Assembly (NCBI RefSeq): GCF_000185145.2
Contig: NZ_GL833119.1
Span: 496,001 to 560,000 of the forward strand
Length of the DNA stretch: 64,000 nucleotides
Reading direction: 5' to 3'
Source of the DNA: Hoylesella oralis ATCC 33269
GTDB taxonomy: Bacteria > Bacteroidota > Bacteroidia > Bacteroidales > Bacteroidaceae
Positions 6,939 to 62,210 of the stretch are shown piece after piece. A model generated the notes under the pieces. The model was given only the letters and a program-made list of their open reading frames with translations. It was not told the origin of the DNA and did no database searches. How positions within the stretch are numbered: position 1 is the first letter of the stretch; each line of letters starts with the position of its first letter. The position numbers were made by a program, and so were the translations under genes.

Positions 6939-9217
6939 AAAAGATCACACTTCTGCTTGCAATGGCGATTATTGCAACAGCTTGCAAAGCAAAAGCCATA
7001 AACACGTGGAACGCATATCCCGCCTATAGCGACATTACAGAGATAGAACCTGCCGGAAATCTCGTATATGTACTGGCATCGGAAGATCTTTACTCGTATA
7101 ATAAAAACGACAACAGTTTGCAGACTTACGACAAAACAACGGTGCTAAACGACTGCTCTATTGCCCGTATAGCTTACTGTAAGGCTGCCAAACGCCTGCT
7201 TATTCTTTATAAAAACTATAATATCGATTTGTTAGACGACAAAGGAAACGTAACCAATATACCGGATTATTACAACAAGTCGATGACGGAAGACAAAACA
7301 GTAAACAGTATTTTCGTCGACGGCAATTACGCCTACCTTACCACTTCGTTCGGCATACTGAAAATAAACGTAAAAAATGCCGAAATCAGCGATACCTACA
7401 ATTTAGGCTATAAAGTAAACAATATGGTCGTATCCAACGGCTATATGTATCTCGTAACGCCTACAGGTACCATGAAAGGTAATGTAACAAAGAACCTGCT
7501 CGATAAAAACAACTGGAATAGAATAAACGGTAACGGTTTCGATGCAATATTCAACATAGGCGGAAAACTAATATGCATCAATAACGTAGCGGCATATCGT
7601 CTTGATGAAAACAATGGTTCGACAACAGAACTTCTATCTATTTTTAATCGAAAAGCAATATTCTCGAACGGAAAAATCATTTGTTTCGGCGGCGAAAGTA
7701 CGGCAATCGTCAACAGTATTACCGACTTTAAAACCATTAATACCAAGTTTACAGCCATCGCCTACGATCCTTCCGCCCAATGTTTTTGGCAGAAGAATGC
7801 CGAAAATAAACTTCAGTCGTTTACAATAGATGGTAACAATCAAATTAATATACAATCTTCCGGCGTGAAACCCGAAGGCCCTCTGTACAACTATTTCGGC
7901 TTTCTTAAGTTCGCCAATGGTATGCTTTATTCGTGCAGCGGAGGATATGGAAAAGGAGGAGAAAACCTAAGAAACGGTTGTATACAAGTACTTAAAGACA
8001 GGAATTGGGTGATTTATCAAGACAATCTTGCACAAATCGTCGGACACAGGTACGAAGACAACATTTCGTTGGATATAGATCCATCCGACATAAACCATGT
8101 GTTTATGGGCGGTAAAACGGGCCTCTATGAGTTTCAGAACGGCACTCTAATCAAACACTACAACATAGACAACAGTCCTCTGCAGTCGGCATTAGGTGAC
8201 AATAAAGATTATGTAGTCGTTGAAACCGTAAAGTTTGACAAAAACGGAAACTTGTGGTTACTTAACAGCATGGCTCCTTCAAACTCACTGATGGAATACA
8301 ATCCGAAAGATGGAAAGTGGACATCACATCAGAATGTAGCATTAGTAAATAATTCAGGACAAAGTCTTGCCGGACTTCAAAATCTGTTTTTCGACAGTAG
8401 AGGACTGCTCTGGTTCGTCAATAACCACTGGGTAACACCATCGCTTTATTTTTTTCAGACCGATAAAGACACGCTCAGTTCCTTTAAATCGTTCGTTAAT
8501 CAAGACGGAACCACACTGTCTTTAGAACGTGTAAGATGCGTTACCGAAGACATTAACGGCAATATATGGATAGGAACCGATATAGGTCCGCTTATGTTAG
8601 AGCCCTCTCAAATCTATAAGGGAGCCGGTGCTATATTCACACAAGTAAAAATTCCGCGCAATGATGGTACCAACTTTGCCGATTATCTGCTATCGGGAGT
8701 AGACATAACCTGCATTGCCGTAGACGGTGCAGGGCGCAAATGGTTCGGCACAAACGGCAATGGAGCCTACTTAATCAGCGAAGATAACATGACACAAGTA
8801 CATCATTTCCTTGCTACAAATAGCCGATTACTCTCGAATAATATAGAAGATATTGCGATAGACCATGCAACCGGTGAGGTTTTCTTCGGCACCGACAAGG
8901 GACTTTGCTCATATATAAGCGACGCAACAGCTCCTTCCGATGAAATGACAAAGGATAACGTGTATGCTTATCCAAACCCTGTACGGCCGGATTACAACGG
9001 ACCTATCACCGTTGTAGGGCTTTCTTTGAATGCCGATGTAAAGATTGTAACGGTGAATGGCGTACTTGTAAAGCAAGGAAGAAGTAACGGCGGAACCTTC
9101 GTTTGGGACGGGAAAGACCGTTATGGCAACCGTGTAGCATCGGGAGTCTATATGGTTGAAACCGCTACCGCCGACGGAAACAAGGGAACAGTGTGCAAAA
9201 TAGCAGTTGTAAGATGA
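6935..9217 (+). CDS. porZ: Type IX secretion system attachment-complex protein PorZ
   Basis: The 760-residue secreted protein has a signal peptide ([21 protein letters not shown]; the Cys at 17 makes a lipoprotein possible). Two or more beta-propeller regions with two-component-regulator-propeller style repeats follow, such as [17 protein letters not shown] and [19 protein letters not shown] FlgD-like C-terminal domain from about residue 675 reads [17 protein letters not shown]. This architecture is that of P. gingivalis PorZ, which sits on the cell surface with PorU, PorV and PorQ and delivers anionic LPS to cargo. The call rests on architecture and on the conserved rdgB-porZ neighbourhood. 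It implies that the strain has a T9SS encoded elsewhere. Confidence 0.85.
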
Positions 9218-10461
9218 CCATCAAAGGCTATCATATCAGTGAAAATAGACTTGTATTTACACTTGTTTCCGTTTTCACACTACTTCAATTAATCATTCTG
9301 ATCATCTTCGGATATACACCATATCCTGACAGTAACGGGTATATTCTGCTCGCCAAAGAATGTCTCTTATACGGTGAACCTTATCCGGCTGCTGCGACTA
9401 TCCATGAATTACCATTCATTTGGAATATCGCAGCCATAAATTTAGTTGCCTTATCGTTAAAGTTTTTTTCTTCTATCACTCCCCTTCTGGTGCTTTATTC
9501 GTTCATGAAAGGTGCATCGGCATGGCTTGTTTACAAGATTACATACCGTATTTTCGACAATAAAACAGCACTTCTCGCTTTACTAATATATATCTGCTAT
9601 CCGGCTAACTATGGCGAATCAACTTCTACACTGAGCGAACTACCGTTCATATTCTTTATACTTTCCGCCATATATCTCTATCAGAAAAACTGTTCGATAA
9701 CCGCAGGCATCTTGCTTGCTATAGCCAACTCTTTTCGCCCGATGGCCTTTCTATTTCTAATTGTACTGCTTATCTACGATCACAAGCACATTCTCCGAAC
9801 TGTTTCGAGCTATGTACTCATTATTTTACTCATAGGCAGCAGCACATACATTCGCACCGGACGTTTCATTTATCAAGCCAAAACGGGATGGATGGATATG
9901 ATGTTATTCTCGTTAAACAATATCAACGACGAATATCCCGATCCGCTTTACATAGAAAACAACGACCGGTTAGACTGCGTACAGCGCGATTCCGTATGGC
10001 GTTCCCGAAGCATACATCTCATATTGAAGCATCCCGCAGGCTACATAGCTTCTATGCCTTATAAACTTATAAAGACTTTTGTATCTGATAATGTGAACAT
10101 GTGTACTTTCATACCCGATAAAAATACGAAAACATATATGTACAACGAAATCAGCATGCCTACGCTCTATCGCAGTTTTCCACACTATTCGGCGGTACAA
10201 GTTCTTACTCTTATCAATCTAATTTATTATTACTTACTGCTTATAACGTCCATTTACGGCTGCATTCTGCTCATCAGAAAACAAGAACACAAAAAACTTA
10301 TCATGCCTGTAAGCGTGGTATTGATAGGTTCGATAGTAATAATAACGGTATGCCATGGTGAAGCCAGATATCATATACCATTCATGCCCTTTATTATAAT
10401 GGTAGCGGCAACAGCTATACGGAGTACTCCTTTTTTTCCTTTTCACAGCAGACAGCAGTAA
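9214..10461 (+). CDS. GT-C-like polytopic membrane glycosyltransferase (ArnT/PMT fold, substrate unknown)
   Basis: I chose the ATG at 9214, which overlaps the porZ stop as ATGA, over a GTG at 9193; this gives 415 residues. About ten hydrophobic segments are spread along the protein. After the first comes a periplasmic loop with YTPYPDSNGYILLAKE, whose Asp resembles the catalytic first-loop acid of GT-C lipid-dependent glycosyltransferases. The segment NIAAINLVALSLKFFS, then a run of short membrane helices and a C-terminal soluble stretch, fit family GT39/GT83-like proteins. Family assignment is by fold, not by close similarity. Coupling to porZ suggests, but does not prove, a role in a surface glycan handled by type IX secretion. 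Confidence 0.65.
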   Translation: MTIKGYHISENRLVFTLVSVFTLLQLIILIIFGYTPYPDSNGYILLAKECLLYGEPYPAAATIHELPFIWNIAAINLVALSLKFFSSITPLLVLYSFMKGASAWLVYKITYRIFDNKTALLALLIYICYPANYGESTSTLSELPFIFFILSAIYLYQKNCSITAGILLAIANSFRPMAFLFLIVLLIYDHKHILRTVSSYVLIILLIGSSTYIRTGRFIYQAKTGWMDMMLFSLNNINDEYPDPLYIENNDRLDCVQRDSVWRSRSIHLILKHPAGYIASMPYKLIKTFVSDNVNMCTFIPDKNTKTYMYNEISMPTLYRSFPHYSAVQVLTLINLIYYYLLLITSIYGCILLIRKQEHKKLIMPVSVVLIGSIVIITVCHGEARYHIPFMPFIIMVAATAIRSTPFFPFHSRQQ

Positions 10462-11572
10462 CAAGAAATGGTAACGACATATCAAAGTAAGTAATATCGT
10501 AAACTCCGGTAAATAATGCATTGAAGTTATCTCGTAACCACATATTATGTAAAAATGTCACCAAAACAATAAATAATAGGCAGTAAGCGATGTTACGCAT
10601 AAGAAGTATATAACTTAGTTCCCATGTTCGAGCCCAGTAAATAGCGAAAAATATAAAAATAAATAAATCAATAAGATTCCTTTGCCGTGTCTGCAATGTA
10701 AACGGATTATATTTAAAGAAGAACAAATCATGTATGTTCCATAACATAAACGGCAAAAAAGTAAAGAAAAACACAGCAAATACCATCAACAAAAATAATA
10801 CTTTCTTTTTCATACTTAATTGCATGTAATCGCCAAACAGCCATATGAAAATAGGAACCACTGTACTCAATCGAGTACTAAGCAGTAAACCACAGACAAA
10901 AGCAACAAGAAAAAAAGCAGAATTTAAACTTTTATGTGTTGAAAGTAAATAATTTATCACCAAAAGTGTAAGCATCATATTTGCCATAAGATCACTTCTA
11001 ACCAGTACTTCATAAATAAATGCCGGAGACAAAAACATAAGACATCCTACCATTAAAGTACATTTATTATCCGTCAATCGATAAATAGAATAAACAAACA
11101 ATCCGAATATAAAAAATATAGATAATCCTACGTTGCCCAAAAAGTAGAATGGAAAATGAAATAACTGCCAAACAGGAAAGGGAGAACTATAACCTCCCAA
11201 ATGCGTTCGGGCAGAATAAGGATATTCTCCATGCAAAAGATTATCCAAAAAATTGTGTATAGCCGACCATCTATCTACTTGCAATAAACACGGATCAATA
11301 CTATATTGGGCAAATATCAACAGAACAATACCAATCGACACCGTAAAAAACAACACTATATCGTGAACCTTTCTCAGTTTATTTATAAGATAAAATAAAC
11401 CACTTACACCGATTATATATACTAAAACAACTAAAAATACCCATTCTACAGACAGCACACGCAATGAATATTTAATCACAAACAAAACATTTACAGCCAA
11501 ATAGAGAAAGAAAATAAATCTTCTTTCAAAAATGGACAACCTATGAAACGAAATATCTATAACAGTATTCAT
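10415..11572 (-). CDS. GT-C-like polytopic membrane protein, probable glycosyltransferase
   Basis: The 385-residue protein has ten or so membrane segments rich in Phe, Leu and Ile. The first large loop contains SIDPCLLQVDRWSAIHNFLD followed by LLHGEYPYSARTHLGG; a D-x-x-W segment then G-x-Y-P-Y is typical of lipid-linked mannosyl/glycosyltransferases of the GT-C fold. A second loop motif is VLVRSDLMANM. The gene is markedly AT-rich compared with its neighbours. It starts 22 bases after nadA ends and is probably read with it. Its 3' end overlaps the oppositely oriented glycosyltransferase gene by 47 bases, so the two transcripts are antisense there. Confidence 0.55.
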   Translation of the reverse strand: MNTVIDISFHRLSIFERRFIFFLYLAVNVLFVIKYSLRVLSVEWVFLVVLVYIIGVSGLFYLINKLRKVHDIVLFFTVSIGIVLLIFAQYSIDPCLLQVDRWSAIHNFLDNLLHGEYPYSARTHLGGYSSPFPVWQLFHFPFYFLGNVGLSIFFIFGLFVYSIYRLTDNKCTLMVGCLMFLSPAFIYEVLVRSDLMANMMLTLLVINYLLSTHKSLNSAFFLVAFVCGLLLSTRLSTVVPIFIWLFGDYMQLSMKKKVLFLLMVFAVFFFTFLPFMLWNIHDLFFFKYNPFTLQTRQRNLIDLFIFIFFAIYWARTWELSYILLMRNIAYCLLFIVLVTFLHNMWLRDNFNALFTGVYDITYFDMSLPFLVTAVCCEKEKKEYSV

Positions 11573-11594
11573 CTTTCATTTATTATTTGCAGCA

Positions 11595-12584
11595 TCAACT
11601 CAATGCAAGCATACGATCGATACTCTTAATTGCTTCCTTTCTTACATCTTCAGATACCTCTATCGAAGGCCACTCATATTTAAGACAGTTGTATATCTTC
11701 GATAAAGAATTCATCTTCATAAATTCGCATTCATTACACGAACACCCCACATTACCTTCACTTATTTCGGGCGGAACGGGATGAAACGTCTTGTCTTTAC
11801 AGTTACGCTGCATCTCGTGGAGAATACCTGCTTCAGTAGCAACAATAAATTCTGTCTCTACACTTTCTATACAATATTTCAGTAACACGGCGGTAGAACC
11901 CACTACATCGGCCATTACAAGCACAGAACCTTTACACTCCGGATGTGCTAAAACTATAGCCTTGGGATGCTCTCGGCGCAGTTTAATGATCTCTTCTACC
12001 GAAAATTTCTCATGTACATGGCAGCCGCCGTTCCACAAAAGCATATTCCTGCCTGTGACAGAATTGATATACGAACCCAGATTATAGTCGGGCCCGAAGA
12101 TCAGTTTGGCATCTTCAGGAAAAGTATCTATTATCTTTTTTGCATTTCCACTGGTCACCACCACGTCGGTAAGTGCCTTTACAGCAGCCGTAGTGTTTAC
12201 GTAACTCACCACTTGATAGTCCGGATGTTCCTCTTTAAACCTACGAAGATCATCGGCAGAACACGAATCAGCAAGCGAACATCCTGCATTTAAGTCGGGT
12301 ACAAGTACTGTCTTGTCGGGACAGAGTATCTTATCAGTCTCGGCCATGAAGTGTACACCGCACATAACGATAATCTTTGCGTCGGTTTTAGCGGCCTTCT
12401 GTGCCAGCGCCAACGAGTCTCCGATAAAGTCGGCAATATCTTGTATTTCGCCTTTTGTATAGTAATGTGCAAGAACAATGGCATGTTTTTCTTCGCACAT
12501 ACGGCGTATTTCTGCTTTTACATCTACCGAACGATCTATCGGTTCATCAATATATCCTTTCTCAATCCATTCGCTTTTCAACAT
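11595..12584 (-). CDS. nadA: Quinolinate synthase
   Basis: The 329-residue iron-sulfur enzyme condenses iminoaspartate with dihydroxyacetone phosphate to quinolinate in de novo NAD synthesis. Diagnostic motifs are AHYYTKGEIQDIADFIGDSL (residues 39-58), MCGVHFMAETDKIL with the first cluster Cys at 75, GPDYNLGSYI, WNGGCHVHEKF with the second Cys, and ATEAGILHEM followed by HPVPP and a Cys-rich CSCNEC segment with the third ligand region. Length is normal for the family. nadB and nadC are not in this window. It heads a leftward unit with the GT-C-like gene, and its upstream region is the proposed replication origin. Confidence 0.95.
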   Translation of the reverse strand: MLKSEWIEKGYIDEPIDRSVDVKAEIRRMCEEKHAIVLAHYYTKGEIQDIADFIGDSLALAQKAAKTDAKIIVMCGVHFMAETDKILCPDKTVLVPDLNAGCSLADSCSADDLRRFKEEHPDYQVVSYVNTTAAVKALTDVVVTSGNAKKIIDTFPEDAKLIFGPDYNLGSYINSVTGRNMLLWNGGCHVHEKFSVEEIIKLRREHPKAIVLAHPECKGSVLVMADVVGSTAVLLKYCIESVETEFIVATEAGILHEMQRNCKDKTFHPVPPEISEGNVGCSCNECEFMKMNSLSKIYNCLKYEWPSIEVSEDVRKEAIKSIDRMLALS

Positions 12585-12629
12585 TACTTTACTATTATAT
12601 CTTATTTTTTCTTTCTTTTTAAAAAGAAT

Positions 12630-12980
12630 ATGTTGTGTATGATATGCTGTGGAAAAGTGTATAACTTTCTGTTAGAATATTTGTTTATTTCGATTTAAAC
12701 CTATTAACTCTTGCTATCAACAGCCAAACGTTACATCTTCTTTATGGTTTTCAGTAAGATAAACGGGTTATCCACAATTATACCCTTGATAGTGCAAAGT
12801 TAATAAGTTTATATTTTTTTCTGCGTAAAAGTTATGGAAAACTTGTGGAAACGGCCGTTAATAAGCTGTAGATATTCACAATTTTACAGACAGGAACGAA
12901 AAGCAGTGGATATGTTTGAAGTTATGAACAGCGTTATACACTGGTTATGCACACACTTATACACAGTTTTATCCACATGG
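12630..12980. other. Candidate chromosomal replication origin (oriC): DnaA-box cluster with AT-rich tract
   Basis: A 660-base gap between nadA and rubredoxin holds many DnaA-box-like 9-mers. Full matches to TTATNCACA are at 12768-12776 (TTATCCACA), 12945-12953 (TTATGCACA), 12957-12965 (TTATACACA) and 12969-12977 (TTATCCACA). One-mismatch copies are at 12872-12880, 12922-12930 (TTATGAACA) and 12934-12942 (TTATACACT), and on the minus strand at 12634-12642, 12648-12656 and 12656-12664. The five boxes from 12922 to 12977 all point the same way and repeat every 11-12 bases, about one helical turn. An AT tract at 12801-12820 could be the unwinding element. Two parS sites 47 kb away support an origin-proximal position. 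dnaA itself is not in the window, which is not unusual in Bacteroidetes. Confidence 0.78.
12795..12802 (-). promoter_or_regulatory. -7 promoter element inside the origin region, reading toward nadA
   Basis: CAAAGTTA reads TAACTTTG on the minus strand, an exact TAnnTTTG match. It lies 211 bases upstream of nadA, with no convincing -33 partner. Transcription from here would cross the left part of the DnaA-box cluster. Confidence 0.35.
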
Positions 12981-13110
12981 CTTGTCGGAAGTAGTAAAGC
13001 TGTGAGTATGATATAGTTGTGTTATGTCTATAGTGTAAGAATAATATGTATGTAATATAAGCCGAATAAACAATACAAATATGATTGCTGAAAACAGTCG
13101 GTAAATAATG

Positions 13111-13143
13111 AAGACGGCATTCCGTTTAAAAGAATGCCGTCTT
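13111..13143. terminator. 12-bp perfect stem-loop between the origin candidate and rubredoxin
   Basis: AAGACGGCATTC (13111-13122) pairs with GAATGCCGTCTT (13132-13143) around a 9-base loop. T-rich flanks lie on both sides, so it could stop transcription in either direction. It sits downstream of the leftward rubredoxin gene and would keep that transcript out of the DnaA-box cluster. Confidence 0.75.
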
Positions 13144-13246
13144 TATTCTGTTGAAAAACCGTGCAGTTAAGGCATTAAAATATTAATTGTATAAGTTGAA
13201 ATACTACTGTCTTAACTCCTTAACTTTTTACAATTTAATCTTCGTT

Positions 13247-13411
13247 TTACTCGTCTACGGGCGAAAAGTCGTCTTTTCCCACCCCGCAGAGCGGACAAAC
13301 CCAATCATCGGGAATATCTTCAAATGCTGTTCCGGGAGCTATGCCACCGTCCGGATCGCCTACTTCAGGATCATAAATGTATCCACATGTTTCACATACA
13401 TACTTTTTCAT
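13247..13411 (-). CDS. Rubredoxin
   Basis: This 54-residue electron carrier was found by translating the gap on the minus strand. The two iron-binding CxxC knuckles are CETCGYIY (Cys6 and Cys9) and [11 protein letters not shown] (Cys39 and Cys42). The conserved aromatic and loop residues Y11, Y13, D14, W37 and F49 are all present, and the length is typical. The start ATG at 13409-13411 is the only candidate; it is preceded by an A/T-rich stretch. In strict anaerobes rubredoxin passes electrons to peroxide- or superoxide-reducing partners. No such partner is adjacent, the neighbours being the origin region and a cell-envelope gene. Confidence 0.97.
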
Positions 13412-13447
13412 AATTGTTTTTGTTTTAAAATTAATAATAATATACTA

Positions 13448-14503
13448 TTACTTTTTCAGTAATATTTTATCTATTTTGTTTGCTATTGTTTCGGGTGTAA
13501 TGTTGTTCATACATGCATAATCGCCTCGCATGCACGGTTTGTTGCCATAGATGGAACATGGTCTGCACGACATATCAAGCTGTACTGCATTTTCTATGCT
13601 CTGGTGCCATCCCATGAAGCCGGCAAAAGGATGTGTGGCGCCCCATACGCTTACTACCGGTACAGCTACTAACGAGGCAAGGTGCATGTTGGCACTATCC
13701 ATGGAAACCATTACATCGAGATATTTCATTATAACGAGTTCGTCGTGCAATCCGTTTGATATAGCCGATGCATTGGTACATTCCGGATATCTTGCAGTCC
13801 ACTTATCGAATGCTTTTTTTTCCTTTTCACCGCCGCCAAAAAGAAATATTCTGCACGAAGGATGCCTGTTTACAACAATTTGAATTACCTTTTCCATCGA
13901 TTCCGTAGGATATATTTTACCCTTGTGTGCTGCAAACGGAGCTATTCCTATCCACTGCTGTAAGGAATTTTTAGTACCTATAGCTTCGGGTAATTGCACT
14001 GTAGTGCGGCCATACTTATCGATAAAGAGCGATGTGAAGTCTAAATTCACCGGATAACCCAGTTTTGCAAGCACATCGGCATAGTTTTGGAACGATGTCG
14101 GCTGTTGTATTAACACCTTATTATTATTAGAGATAAGCCTGCGTTTCCCTGCACGATGCTTGTCTATATGGGCCACCTTGTAGCAGTCGATGTTAAATCT
14201 TATGCGCAAATAGTGCGATCTAAGAATGCTATGAAAGTCGGCTATTGCCGTAAAGTTCTTAGCTACGAGCCGTCTGTACAGCGCATTAAGTCCTTTGATA
14301 TTACTGTATTCCTTTTTTATATCGGCTTCCATGAAGCTTACATTGGATGCTAAATCTTCGAAAAAAGCCTTTGCGAACGGTTTACTCAGCACTGTAATGC
14401 GAATGTTCGGGTATTGTGTTGCCAACGAATATACCACCGGTACCGTCATTGCTACATCTCCTATAGCAGAAAATCTTATAATTAAGATATGTTCTGTTTT
14501 CAT
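13448..14503 (-). CDS. Glycosyltransferase family 9 (heptosyltransferase-like)
   Basis: The 351-residue GT-B protein starts with ILIIRFSAIGDVAMTVPVVYSL, the classic N-terminus of WaaC/WaaF/RfaF-type enzymes. In the C-terminal half are IGIAPFAAHKGKIYP, then SMDSANMHLASLVAVPVVSVWG, the nucleotide-sugar-binding segment of the family, and PFAGFMGW. It should add a sugar to the lipopolysaccharide inner core at the cytoplasmic face of the inner membrane. The donor may be ADP-heptose or another sugar, which sequence alone does not settle. It follows a DUF4254 gene by 44 bases in the same direction and is probably co-transcribed from the promoter at 15184-15214. Confidence 0.88.
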   Translation of the reverse strand: MKTEHILIIRFSAIGDVAMTVPVVYSLATQYPNIRITVLSKPFAKAFFEDLASNVSFMEADIKKEYSNIKGLNALYRRLVAKNFTAIADFHSILRSHYLRIRFNIDCYKVAHIDKHRAGKRRLISNNNKVLIQQPTSFQNYADVLAKLGYPVNLDFTSLFIDKYGRTTVQLPEAIGTKNSLQQWIGIAPFAAHKGKIYPTESMEKVIQIVVNRHPSCRIFLFGGGEKEKKAFDKWTARYPECTNASAISNGLHDELVIMKYLDVMVSMDSANMHLASLVAVPVVSVWGATHPFAGFMGWHQSIENAVQLDMSCRPCSIYGNKPCMRGDYACMNNITPETIANKIDKILLKK

Positions 14504-59547: not shown

Positions 59548-59563
59548 TGTTTCACGTGAAACA
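59548..59563. promoter_or_regulatory. parS site (ParB binding), perfect
   Basis: TGTTTCACGTGAAACA fits the 16-base parS consensus TGTTNCACGTGAAACA at every position. It lies between uvrC and apt. Such sites load ParB near the replication origin for chromosome segregation. Confidence 0.9.
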
Positions 59564-60275: not shown

Positions 60276-60291
60276 TGTTTCACGTGAAACC
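60276..60291. promoter_or_regulatory. parS site, 15 of 16 match
   Basis: TGTTTCACGTGAAACC differs from the consensus only in the last base and keeps the full CACGTG core and both inner arms. It lies between apt and mnmG, 728 bases from the perfect site. Confidence 0.85.
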
Positions 60292-60315: not shown

Positions 60316-62193
60316 TTATCTTCCTAAGAGAATTAGAAGAACATTGATATCACTTGGGGATATCCCCGGTATACGACTTGCTTGTGCCAATGTTTCTGGG
60401 TTTATTCGTTCTAATTTTTGTCGGGCTTCAGTGGATAGCTCATGAAGTTCCTTATATTTGAAGCGGTCTTTTATCTTAATATCTTCCAGTCGTCGCATTT
60501 TTTCTGCTATCATTCTTTCGCGTTCGATATAACCTTTATATTTGATATTTATTTCGGAGGCTTCGATAATTTCTTCTTTTCGGTTTGTTGGAGTGTTGAT
60601 AATTTCTTTCAATTCGGGGATGAAATTTGCCAAATATTTTAATCCTACTTGTGGTCTTCCGATAAGATCAGAAATTTTGCAGCCCATTCTAAGTGGAGTC
60701 GTACCAATGGCTCCGAGTGCAGAGTTTATATCTTTTGCTTTCACGGAGGTATTGTTACAATAATTTAAAATATGCTTTATTGCATTTTTCTTTTCAATCC
60801 ACCAATCATATCGGTCTTTTTTTGCTAACCCGAGTGTATAAGATTTTTCTGTTAGACGAGCATCTGCATCATCTTGTCTTAACAATATGCGGTATTCTGC
60901 TCTTGAAGTAAACATGCGATATGGTTCGTCTACGCCTTTTGTTGTGAGATCGTCGATAAGTACACCGATATAACTTTCGTCTCGTTTCATCACGAAAGGT
61001 TCCGCATTTGTACAATGCAGTGCAGCATTTACGCCAGCCACGAGTCCTTGTCCACCTGCTTCTTCGTATCCGGTAGTACCGTTTACTTGTCCTGCAAAGA
61101 ATAATCCTGCAATTATCTTCGATTCCAACGAGTGTTTGAGCTGCGTAGGATCAAAATAATCATACTCTATTGCATACCCCGGACGATAAATCTTTGCATC
61201 CCTTAATGCAGGAATTTGATGGATAGCTTTTAACTGGACATCCATTGGCATACTCGAAGAAAATCCATTTAGATACATTTCGTTGGTATCTTCTCCCTCC
61301 GGTTCGAGAAATAATGGATGCTGGTCTTTGTCAGGAAATGTAACAAGTTTAGTTTCTATAGATGGACAATAACGCGGCCCGATACTTTGAATTTGCCCGT
61401 TGAAAAGGGGGGAATCTGCAAGTCCTTGGTGTAAAATATCATGGCATTCCTTGGTAGTGTAGCATGTCCAGCAGGGTAGTTGTCTCAACACACGATAATT
61501 ACCCATGTAACTGAATTGATGAAAATCATTCTCGCCGGGTTGTATTTCCATCTCTTCAAAGTGCACACTTCGCTTATCTATACGTACAGGAGTTCCGGTT
61601 TTCATCCGTTCTGCTCGGATACCCCATCGAGTTATACTTTCCGTAAAGTTGGGTACAGCCGGCTCTGCGCATCGTCCGCCCGTAACTTGATGTCTGCCTA
61701 TGTGCATCAAACCATTTAGGAAAGTACCGGCAGTGATGATAATACTTTTGGCGCGAAGTTCTACTCCCCATATTGTTTTGATGCCTACAGCCTCGTTGTT
61801 TTTTACAATAAGTTCGTTAGCTTGGTCTTGCCAAATAGATAGGTTCGGGGTATTATCGAGGATTTGCCTCCATTTCCAAATGAATTTCTCACGGTCACAC
61901 TGGGCTCGCGGTGACCATACGGCAGGACCTTTGCCCTTATTAAGCATTCTAAACTGTATAGCTGTTTCGTCGGTTACGTGCCCCATCTGTCCTCCTAAGG
62001 CATCGATTTCGCGTACGATTTGCCCTTTTGCAATACCACCTACGGCAGGATTACAACTCATTTGTGCTATTTTATTCATGTCCATGGTAACAAGACACGT
62101 GTCGGCTCCCATGTTTGCCGAAGCGGTTGCAGCTTCACACCCTGCATGACCTCCTCCCACGACAATCACATCATACTTAAATATCATCATCAT
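60316..62193 (-). CDS. mnmG: tRNA uridine-5-carboxymethylaminomethyl modification enzyme MnmG (GidA)
   Basis: The FAD enzyme, about 625 residues, works with MnmE to modify U34 of several tRNAs. The FAD motif is YDVIVVGGGHAGCEAATASA, followed by CLVTMDMNKIAQMSCNPAVGGIAKG. PQFNGQ-like and RPGYAIEYDYFDP segments, and GYEEAGGQGLVAGVNAA, are family markers. The C-terminal MnmE/tRNA-binding helical part ends in ASRIPGISPSDINVLLILLGR. The start is uncertain: three ATG codons stand in a row (62193, 62190, 62187), and an ATG at 62205 overlaps a possible -7 element at 62203-62210. Confidence 0.95.
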   Translation of the reverse strand: MMMIFKYDVIVVGGGHAGCEAATASANMGADTCLVTMDMNKIAQMSCNPAVGGIAKGQIVREIDALGGQMGHVTDETAIQFRMLNKGKGPAVWSPRAQCDREKFIWKWRQILDNTPNLSIWQDQANELIVKNNEAVGIKTIWGVELRAKSIIITAGTFLNGLMHIGRHQVTGGRCAEPAVPNFTESITRWGIRAERMKTGTPVRIDKRSVHFEEMEIQPGENDFHQFSYMGNYRVLRQLPCWTCYTTKECHDILHQGLADSPLFNGQIQSIGPRYCPSIETKLVTFPDKDQHPLFLEPEGEDTNEMYLNGFSSSMPMDVQLKAIHQIPALRDAKIYRPGYAIEYDYFDPTQLKHSLESKIIAGLFFAGQVNGTTGYEEAGGQGLVAGVNAALHCTNAEPFVMKRDESYIGVLIDDLTTKGVDEPYRMFTSRAEYRILLRQDDADARLTEKSYTLGLAKKDRYDWWIEKKNAIKHILNYCNNTSVKAKDINSALGAIGTTPLRMGCKISDLIGRPQVGLKYLANFIPELKEIINTPTNRKEEIIEASEINIKYKGYIERERMIAEKMRRLEDIKIKDRFKYKELHELSTEARQKLERINPETLAQASRIPGISPSDINVLLILLGR

Positions 62194-62202
62194 TATTTTC
62201 GG

Positions 62203-62210
62203 CAAAAGTA
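62203..62210 (-). promoter_or_regulatory. Possible -7 element for mnmG
   Basis: CAAAAGTA reads TACTTTTG on the minus strand. The predicted start (about 62196) is only a few bases before the first in-frame ATG. No -33 TTTG is seen. Confidence 0.4.

Follow-up and report, generated by a model that had tools for sequence, protein, structure and literature searches.

A predicted DnaA-dependent chromosomal origin with a conserved AT-rich core in the nadA-rubredoxin gap of a Prevotella-group bacterium

Introduction

Does the gap between nadA and a rubredoxin gene, rich in DnaA boxes, hold the replication origin (oriC) of the main chromosome of this Prevotella-group bacterium? The window, i.e., the whole 64,000-nucleotide stretch of DNA analyzed here (G000:C4:496001-560000), belongs to contig C4, which comprises 2,169,350 of the 2,835,816 bases of the genome. 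The initial annotation had proposed the gap as a candidate oriC, and the analysis supports this reading: most of the tests that could be run were passed, and none failed outright. For Prevotella intermedia, the portions of the genome report dealing with oriC describe an origin predicted in 2015 with the software Ori-Finder, at a skew transition and away from dnaA (PMC4755523).

Results

In the nadA-rubredoxin gap, between positions 12634 and 12977, ten DnaA boxes were found that match TTATNCACA exactly or with a single mismatch. Four of these are exact (starts 12768, 12945, 12957, and 12969), two of the four reading TTATCCACA, and six carry one mismatch (12634, 12648, and 12656 on the minus strand; 12872, 12922, and 12934 on the plus strand); all the boxes counted in the initial annotation were thus located. 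The five boxes at 12922-12977 point in the same direction with steps of 12, 11, 12, and 12 bases, as had been described. The accompanying claim that they lie on one face of the helix is wrong: with a helical repeat of 10.5 bp per turn, the 47 bp from the first to the last box correspond to ∼4.5 turns, placing the two on nearly opposite faces. The features of the gap and its neighbors are given below, with offsets counted from the start of the AT-rich core.

11595-12584, minus strand: nadA, quinolinate synthase, the left neighbor, reading away from the putative origin
12634-12664, minus strand: three one-mismatch DnaA boxes (12634, 12648, and 12656) forming the left group, oriented away from the core
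12714-12722, plus strand: degenerate box CTATCAACA with 2 mismatches, at offset -78 from the core, its position being conserved
12768-12776, plus strand: core DnaA box TTATCCACA at offset -24, directed towards the AT-rich core, the most conserved box
12792-12820, plus strand: AT-rich core GTGCAAAGTTAATAAGTTTATATTTTTTT, the proposed unwinding element, in which T replaces the consensus C near the end
12833-12841, minus strand: degenerate box TTTTCCATA facing the core; the plus-strand consensus of the relatives is GTGGAAAA
12872-12880, plus strand: one-mismatch DnaA box ATATTCACA; the relatives peak at +79/+80
12905-12913, minus strand: degenerate box ATATCCACT with 2 mismatches; the relatives peak at +113/+114
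12922-12977, plus strand: right array, in which five boxes (12922, 12934, 12945, 12957, and 12969) stand head to tail, the last three exact
13107-13147, no strand assigned: strong inverted repeat resembling a terminator on the minus strand, located between the putative origin and the rubredoxin and glycosyltransferase genes
13247-13411, minus strand: rubredoxin gene, the right neighbor, reading towards the putative origin

Single boxes mean little, since exact matches to TTATNCACA number 153 in the 2.84-Mb genome against 115 for the reversed-pattern control. The clustering was compared with 200 order-1 Markov sequences of 64 kb each. Same-strand boxes with at most one mismatch whose starts fall within 47 bp number five here against a simulated maximum of three, reached in 2/200 sequences, and exact boxes inside 210 bp number four against a simulated maximum of two (5/200). 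The arrangement TTATNCACA-N0-30-TTATNCACA occurs twice in the 2.84-Mb genome, both times in this gap (control, 0), and box pairs separated by exactly 3 nt, with at most two mismatches, occur at four places genome-wide, three of them here (control, 2). A second, denser DnaA-box cluster elsewhere, which would have spoken against the reading of the initial annotation, was not found in the 2.84-Mb genome in the form of paired exact boxes (within 30 bp). The inverted repeat at 13107-13147 scored a z of -5.7 as a DNA fold, one such repeat being found against 0.4 expected in shuffles. No Rfam family reached its gathering score in 11400-13600, and an RNA element in the gap was rejected.

Cumulative GC and keto skew were evaluated from 60 stretches of 12 kb on contigs C1, C3, and C4, to which 60 kb of the window and two flanks of 6 kb each were added. 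Along contig C4, both were lowest in the sample ending just before the gap, and the cumulative skew peaked in the sample whose first position is 1,978,001 of the 2.17-Mb contig. The GC dip was shallow with a noisy left arm, and the keto dip was clearer. In 2-kb bins of the window, the cumulative GC minimum fell after 12001-14000 and the keto minimum after 10001-12000, the resolution being some kilobases inside the window and tens of kilobases outside it. The skew minimum suspected here in the initial annotation is hence borne out in the window bins as well as in the sampled contig, C4 being a single contig of a circle that is not closed, with C1 and C3 unplaced. As had also been noted, dnaA is outside the window; it was located on contig C3, which carries a parB-family gene as well (C3:4204). 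The gap is therefore not adjacent to dnaA, as a dnaA-linked, B. subtilis-type origin would be. According to the oriC-related portions of the P. intermedia report, oriC is commonly distant from dnaA in Bacteroidetes (PMC4755523).

Conservation of the gap was evaluated in the best 80 of more than 590 candidate loci from a NadA scan, mostly labeled Prevotella or Prevotellaceae. At least three exact boxes within 1 kb were present in 40 of the 77 loci, among these best 80, that extend at least 700 bp upstream of nadA. Alignment of 78 loci having at least 450 bp upstream of nadA, along with the window, showed the best conservation for TTATCCACA (12768) followed by a spacer of usually 13 nt (15 in the window) and then by GTGCAAAnnTAATAAGTTTATATCTTTTT, the whole corresponding to 12768-12820 of the window. 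By alignment, conservation is thus highest in the lone 12768 box and the adjoining AT-rich core, and not in the five-box array. Among the best 80 nadA-linked loci, the core was found with at most six mismatches in 75 (43 with none and 21 with one); it was absent near nadA in 4/80, and one further locus was too short. The box equivalent to 12768 reads TTATCCACA in 58 of the 75 loci and starts 22 nt before the core, i.e., with the 13-nt spacer, in 62/75 (24 nt in the window). The core itself begins 200-209 bp upstream of nadA in 62/75.

The box register was derived from 98 sites, namely the window, 75 loci linked to nadA, and 22 further loci, one duplicate having been dropped, and the counts are given over 97 sites. 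Possession of the core was the basis of selection, and several of the 22 further loci may repeat species of named records (the contigs of G255 and L164 are equal in length), so that the counts are not independent. Plus-strand boxes with at most one mismatch were present at core offset -22 in 79/97 sites, at -23 in 12/97, and at -76 in 42/97. To the right of the core, plus-strand peaks were seen at +79/+80 (30/97) and, corresponding to the right array, at +130/131 (44/97), +142/143 (58), +153-155 (63), and +165/166 (26). On the minus strand, a box facing the core at +41 was found in 26/97 sites and a peak at +113/114 in 39/97, in addition to left peaks at -142 (21/97) and -134 (14/97). The boxes of the window at 12648 and 12656 lie at -144 and -136, a shift of 2 nt that fits its longer box-core spacer. 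Successive plus-strand boxes at +100 to +219 were spaced by 12 bp in 111 and by 11 bp in 18 of 166 cases, this total being a sum of per-locus counts. Conservation of the array in related genomes, a check suggested in the initial annotation, accordingly holds for the array positions and their 12-bp register, whereas the best-conserved part is the 12768 box with the AT-rich core.

The AT-rich core has a mean AT content of 0.77-0.79 over the 98 sites. Another AT-rich stretch, with a mean of 0.88-0.91, lies left of the left boxes at offsets -200 to -161, and the window is also AT-rich right of the array (13021-13080). Either of these flanking stretches could be the true unwinding site.

A 23-mer of the core, with at most one mismatch, was detected in 70 of 149 genomes of the genus, once in each except for two copies in G050; the reversed 23-mer gave none in every genome listed. 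G050 also has three nadA matches on separate contigs and is possibly a mixed assembly. In G010, a 23-mer match on contig C2 was considered as a second-chromosome origin and rejected, as it has no box cluster within 15 kb and is located upstream of a gene that looks by eye like one for aspartyl-tRNA synthetase; it is most likely a promoter-like chance match. The putative origin of G010 is elsewhere and, having two mismatches to the 23-mer, is not the match counted in the 70.

Of the 77 core regions available, 42 were used to build a model based on sequence only. Applied to 298 genomes of the family, this model gave matches at E ≤ 1e-6 in 104 (hand count), among them the own genome; all belong to the own genus and have one such match each, and some may have supplied sequences to the model. 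A class draw of 197 genomes gave three strong matches, again all of the own genus. A core outside the genus was rejected: only weak matches were obtained there, the best with E of 1.0e-5 in other genera of the family and 2.2e-5 in the class draw, and these are most probably due to chance. Within the 298 family genomes, at least 20 genomes of the same genus gave no model match at E ≤ 0.001 and eight more gave weak matches only; as the model scored 14 candidates per genome in the family draw and 22 in the class draw, absence is weak evidence. In samples taken every 40-180 kb, the sign of the skew switches around the core in G138 and on contig C1 of G094, and no clear two-armed pattern was seen in G016 and G100.

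The initial annotation had also pointed to two parS sites 47 kb away. These were confirmed as parS-like, and no other site in the genome comes within one mismatch of TGTTNCACGTGNAACA:

59548-59563, no strand assigned: parS-like site TGTTTCACGTGAAACA, between uvrC and mnmG
60276-60291, no strand assigned: second parS-like site, with 1 mismatch, a short distance downstream of mnmG (60316-62205, minus strand)

In the window, the two sites flank mnmG near uvrC, 47 kb right of the putative origin. Presence of parS sites in the origin region is usual, though not obligatory. Twenty relatives were selected because their core is on a long contig. Of these, 19 have parS-like sites, 31 distinct ones in total, each sharing its contig with the core at a distance of 24-73 kb (worked out by hand); no match was found in the remaining one, G100. 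The reversed pattern matched in 4 of the 20.

In another explanation, the conserved block would be the nadA promoter with a DnaA-controlled operator, its boxes regulating NAD synthesis and not replication. The position of the core 200-209 bp upstream of nadA in most nadA-linked loci is in line with this. The block GCAAAnnTA of the core reads TAnnTTTGC on the other strand, containing TAnnTTTG, which the available part of the source gives as the -7 promoter box of Bacteroidota (PMC7366714). The G010 match, a similar 23-mer without box cluster just upstream of the synthetase-like gene, points the same way. Further, GCAAA is absent in 5 of the 17 nadA-non-adjacent loci that were read (G016, G131, G043, G151, and G012) and present in 41/41 nadA-linked or window sequences of alignment A1, which were picked for the core; but even among the non-adjacent loci it is retained in 12/17.

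Linkage to nadA, which a promoter region would keep, is not constant. By hand comparison of the 58 genomes with results for both nadA and the core, 40 have nadA within 0.6 kb of the core and one has it at 2.2 kb; in 13 it is far off or on a different contig, and four (G003, G041, G084, and G016), in which nadA has no match, nevertheless keep box and core. Twelve of the 13 were confirmed by reading the locus; in the other, G155, the core is at a contig end, which may be an assembly break. Neighbors were read over 6 kb in 22 loci: in G003, G041, G084, G100, G167, G091, G087, and G094, none of the eight tested window genes was present, yet an exact TTATNCACA box and a core with 0-3 mismatches were retained. 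A promoter, moreover, does not account for the skew minimum, the nearby parS-like sites, or an array that comprises as many as five boxes. Since the core persists with nadA absent or distant and has parS-like sites in its vicinity, it is better understood as part of a chromosomal oriC than as a nadA control region. Regulation of nadA was therefore rejected as the entire explanation and is very improbable as such, while a second role in nadA expression was retained as possible. The pattern of loss hints that the GCAAAnnTA block serves nadA transcription and that the box and TAATAAGTTnATATCTTT serve replication, the correlation being weak and drawn from few genomes.

Discussion

The nadA-rubredoxin gap is very probably, as judged from sequence, the DnaA-dependent oriC of the main chromosome. 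This reading follows from a unique box cluster exceeding chance, a core conserved in relatives and present in a single copy, a sampled skew minimum, parS-like sites in the same region, and independence from the neighboring genes. An AT-rich element beside the boxes fits in composition and conservation, with other AT-rich stretches also flanking the boxes. In E. coli, the cluster datA titrates DnaA, and such a titration or regulatory cluster (datA/DARS-like) near a true oriC placed elsewhere in the region would accord with the resolution of the skew minimum (some kilobases in the window and tens outside), but it is extremely improbable here, as the genome has no second cluster of paired exact boxes, the AT-rich core lies between facing boxes, and one strong core copy per genome was present wherever the model found one.

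Taking the gap as oriC, the initial binding of DnaA would be to the exact box 12768 and to the boxes of the right array (12922-12977). The ∼12-bp step, i.e., a 9-bp box with 2-3 bp, would let ATP-DnaA pack head to tail; as each such step turns by ∼50 degrees, the complex would wind around the DNA as a helical filament instead of lining one face. Between the 12768 box and the weaker facing box at 12833, the AT-rich core (12792-12820) would melt and take the helicases, and it is the best candidate for melting owing to its being the most conserved stretch and to its position between facing boxes. Forks would depart in both directions, and ParB, made elsewhere, would load 47 kb to the right, at the two parS-like sites, segregating the new origins. 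Transcription of nadA may start within the unwinding region, given the -7 box on the other strand of the core, and the terminator-like hairpin at 13107-13147 would exclude transcripts from the rubredoxin side.

In E. coli oriC, an AT-rich unwinding region lies beside a high-affinity box, with opposed box groups and tight tandem boxes, and dnaA is not adjacent. The present locus is similar in each of these respects, its unwinding region being a proposed one, whereas its sequence and layout are different, a box facing the core from each side. The predicted oriC of the first chromosome of P. intermedia OMA14, likewise of the Prevotella group, is about 0.48 kb long and has multiple DnaA boxes at a GC-skew transition with dnaA not near, as described in the oriC passages of the report (PMC4755523); the likeness is one of description. 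Those passages, in contrast to the present analysis, give no core motif, register, or cross-species comparison (PMC4755523).

The B. subtilis basal unwinding system (BUS), as given in the available parts of its descriptions (PMC6669920, PMC8287927), shows a further likeness, since here, too, the putative unwinding element adjoins an exact TTATCCACA. The commonest BUS spacer given there is 13 nt (PMC8287927), equal to the box-to-core spacer in 62/75 loci (15 nt in the window), and BUS-like tandem exact boxes precede the core in G091, G094, and G167. However, the 13 nt lead here to the core and not to DnaA-trios, and the BUS is recognized by a run of trios 3'-NAN-5' within 16 nt of a box. At 96-98 sites, no excess of trios over mononucleotide shuffles was found beside the three candidate boxes: at least three trios ran from box -22 in 50/98 sites against 61.4 expected, from the facing box in 35/98 against 40.8, and beyond the right array in 49/96 against 44.7. 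A BUS (DnaA-trio) architecture was hence rejected.

It may tentatively be proposed, from these comparisons, that origins of the Prevotella group use an unwinding module of their own (a strongly conserved 29-bp core whose distance to an exact box hardly varies, a weaker facing box, no trio excess, and an internal promoter box) and that second chromosomes of this group start by another system; this remains rather less than an even prospect. In G094, which presumably has two chromosomes, contig C1 alone carries parS-like sites and the strong match to the core, and nadA is on C2 (1,371,874 bp). The sampled skew of C2 is noisy, and a second, weak model match in G094 is not among the places listed. 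The origin of the second chromosome of P. intermedia is called unknown in the portion of the report on origins (PMC4755523).

Prediction of oriC in Prevotella was already known; what is added here is the conserved core, the 12-bp register, and the link to parS-like sites, of which no published description was found in a limited search of the oriC literature on Prevotella and Bacteroidetes. The core would offer a sequence signature for the main-chromosome origin in fragmented assemblies of the Prevotella group, where dnaA is useless as a landmark. Such a signature would aid growth-rate estimates from read depth, genome rotation, and minimal-origin tests, and the main-chromosome core offers a contrast with second chromosomes.

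Left of nadA, the window also contains two converging, slightly overlapping genes (9193-10461, plus strand, and 10415-11572, minus strand) for proteins of ∼400 amino acids without a Pfam match that resemble membrane proteins by eye. In G136, G131, and G043, relatives of one or the other gene are located no more than ∼2.5 kb away from the core.
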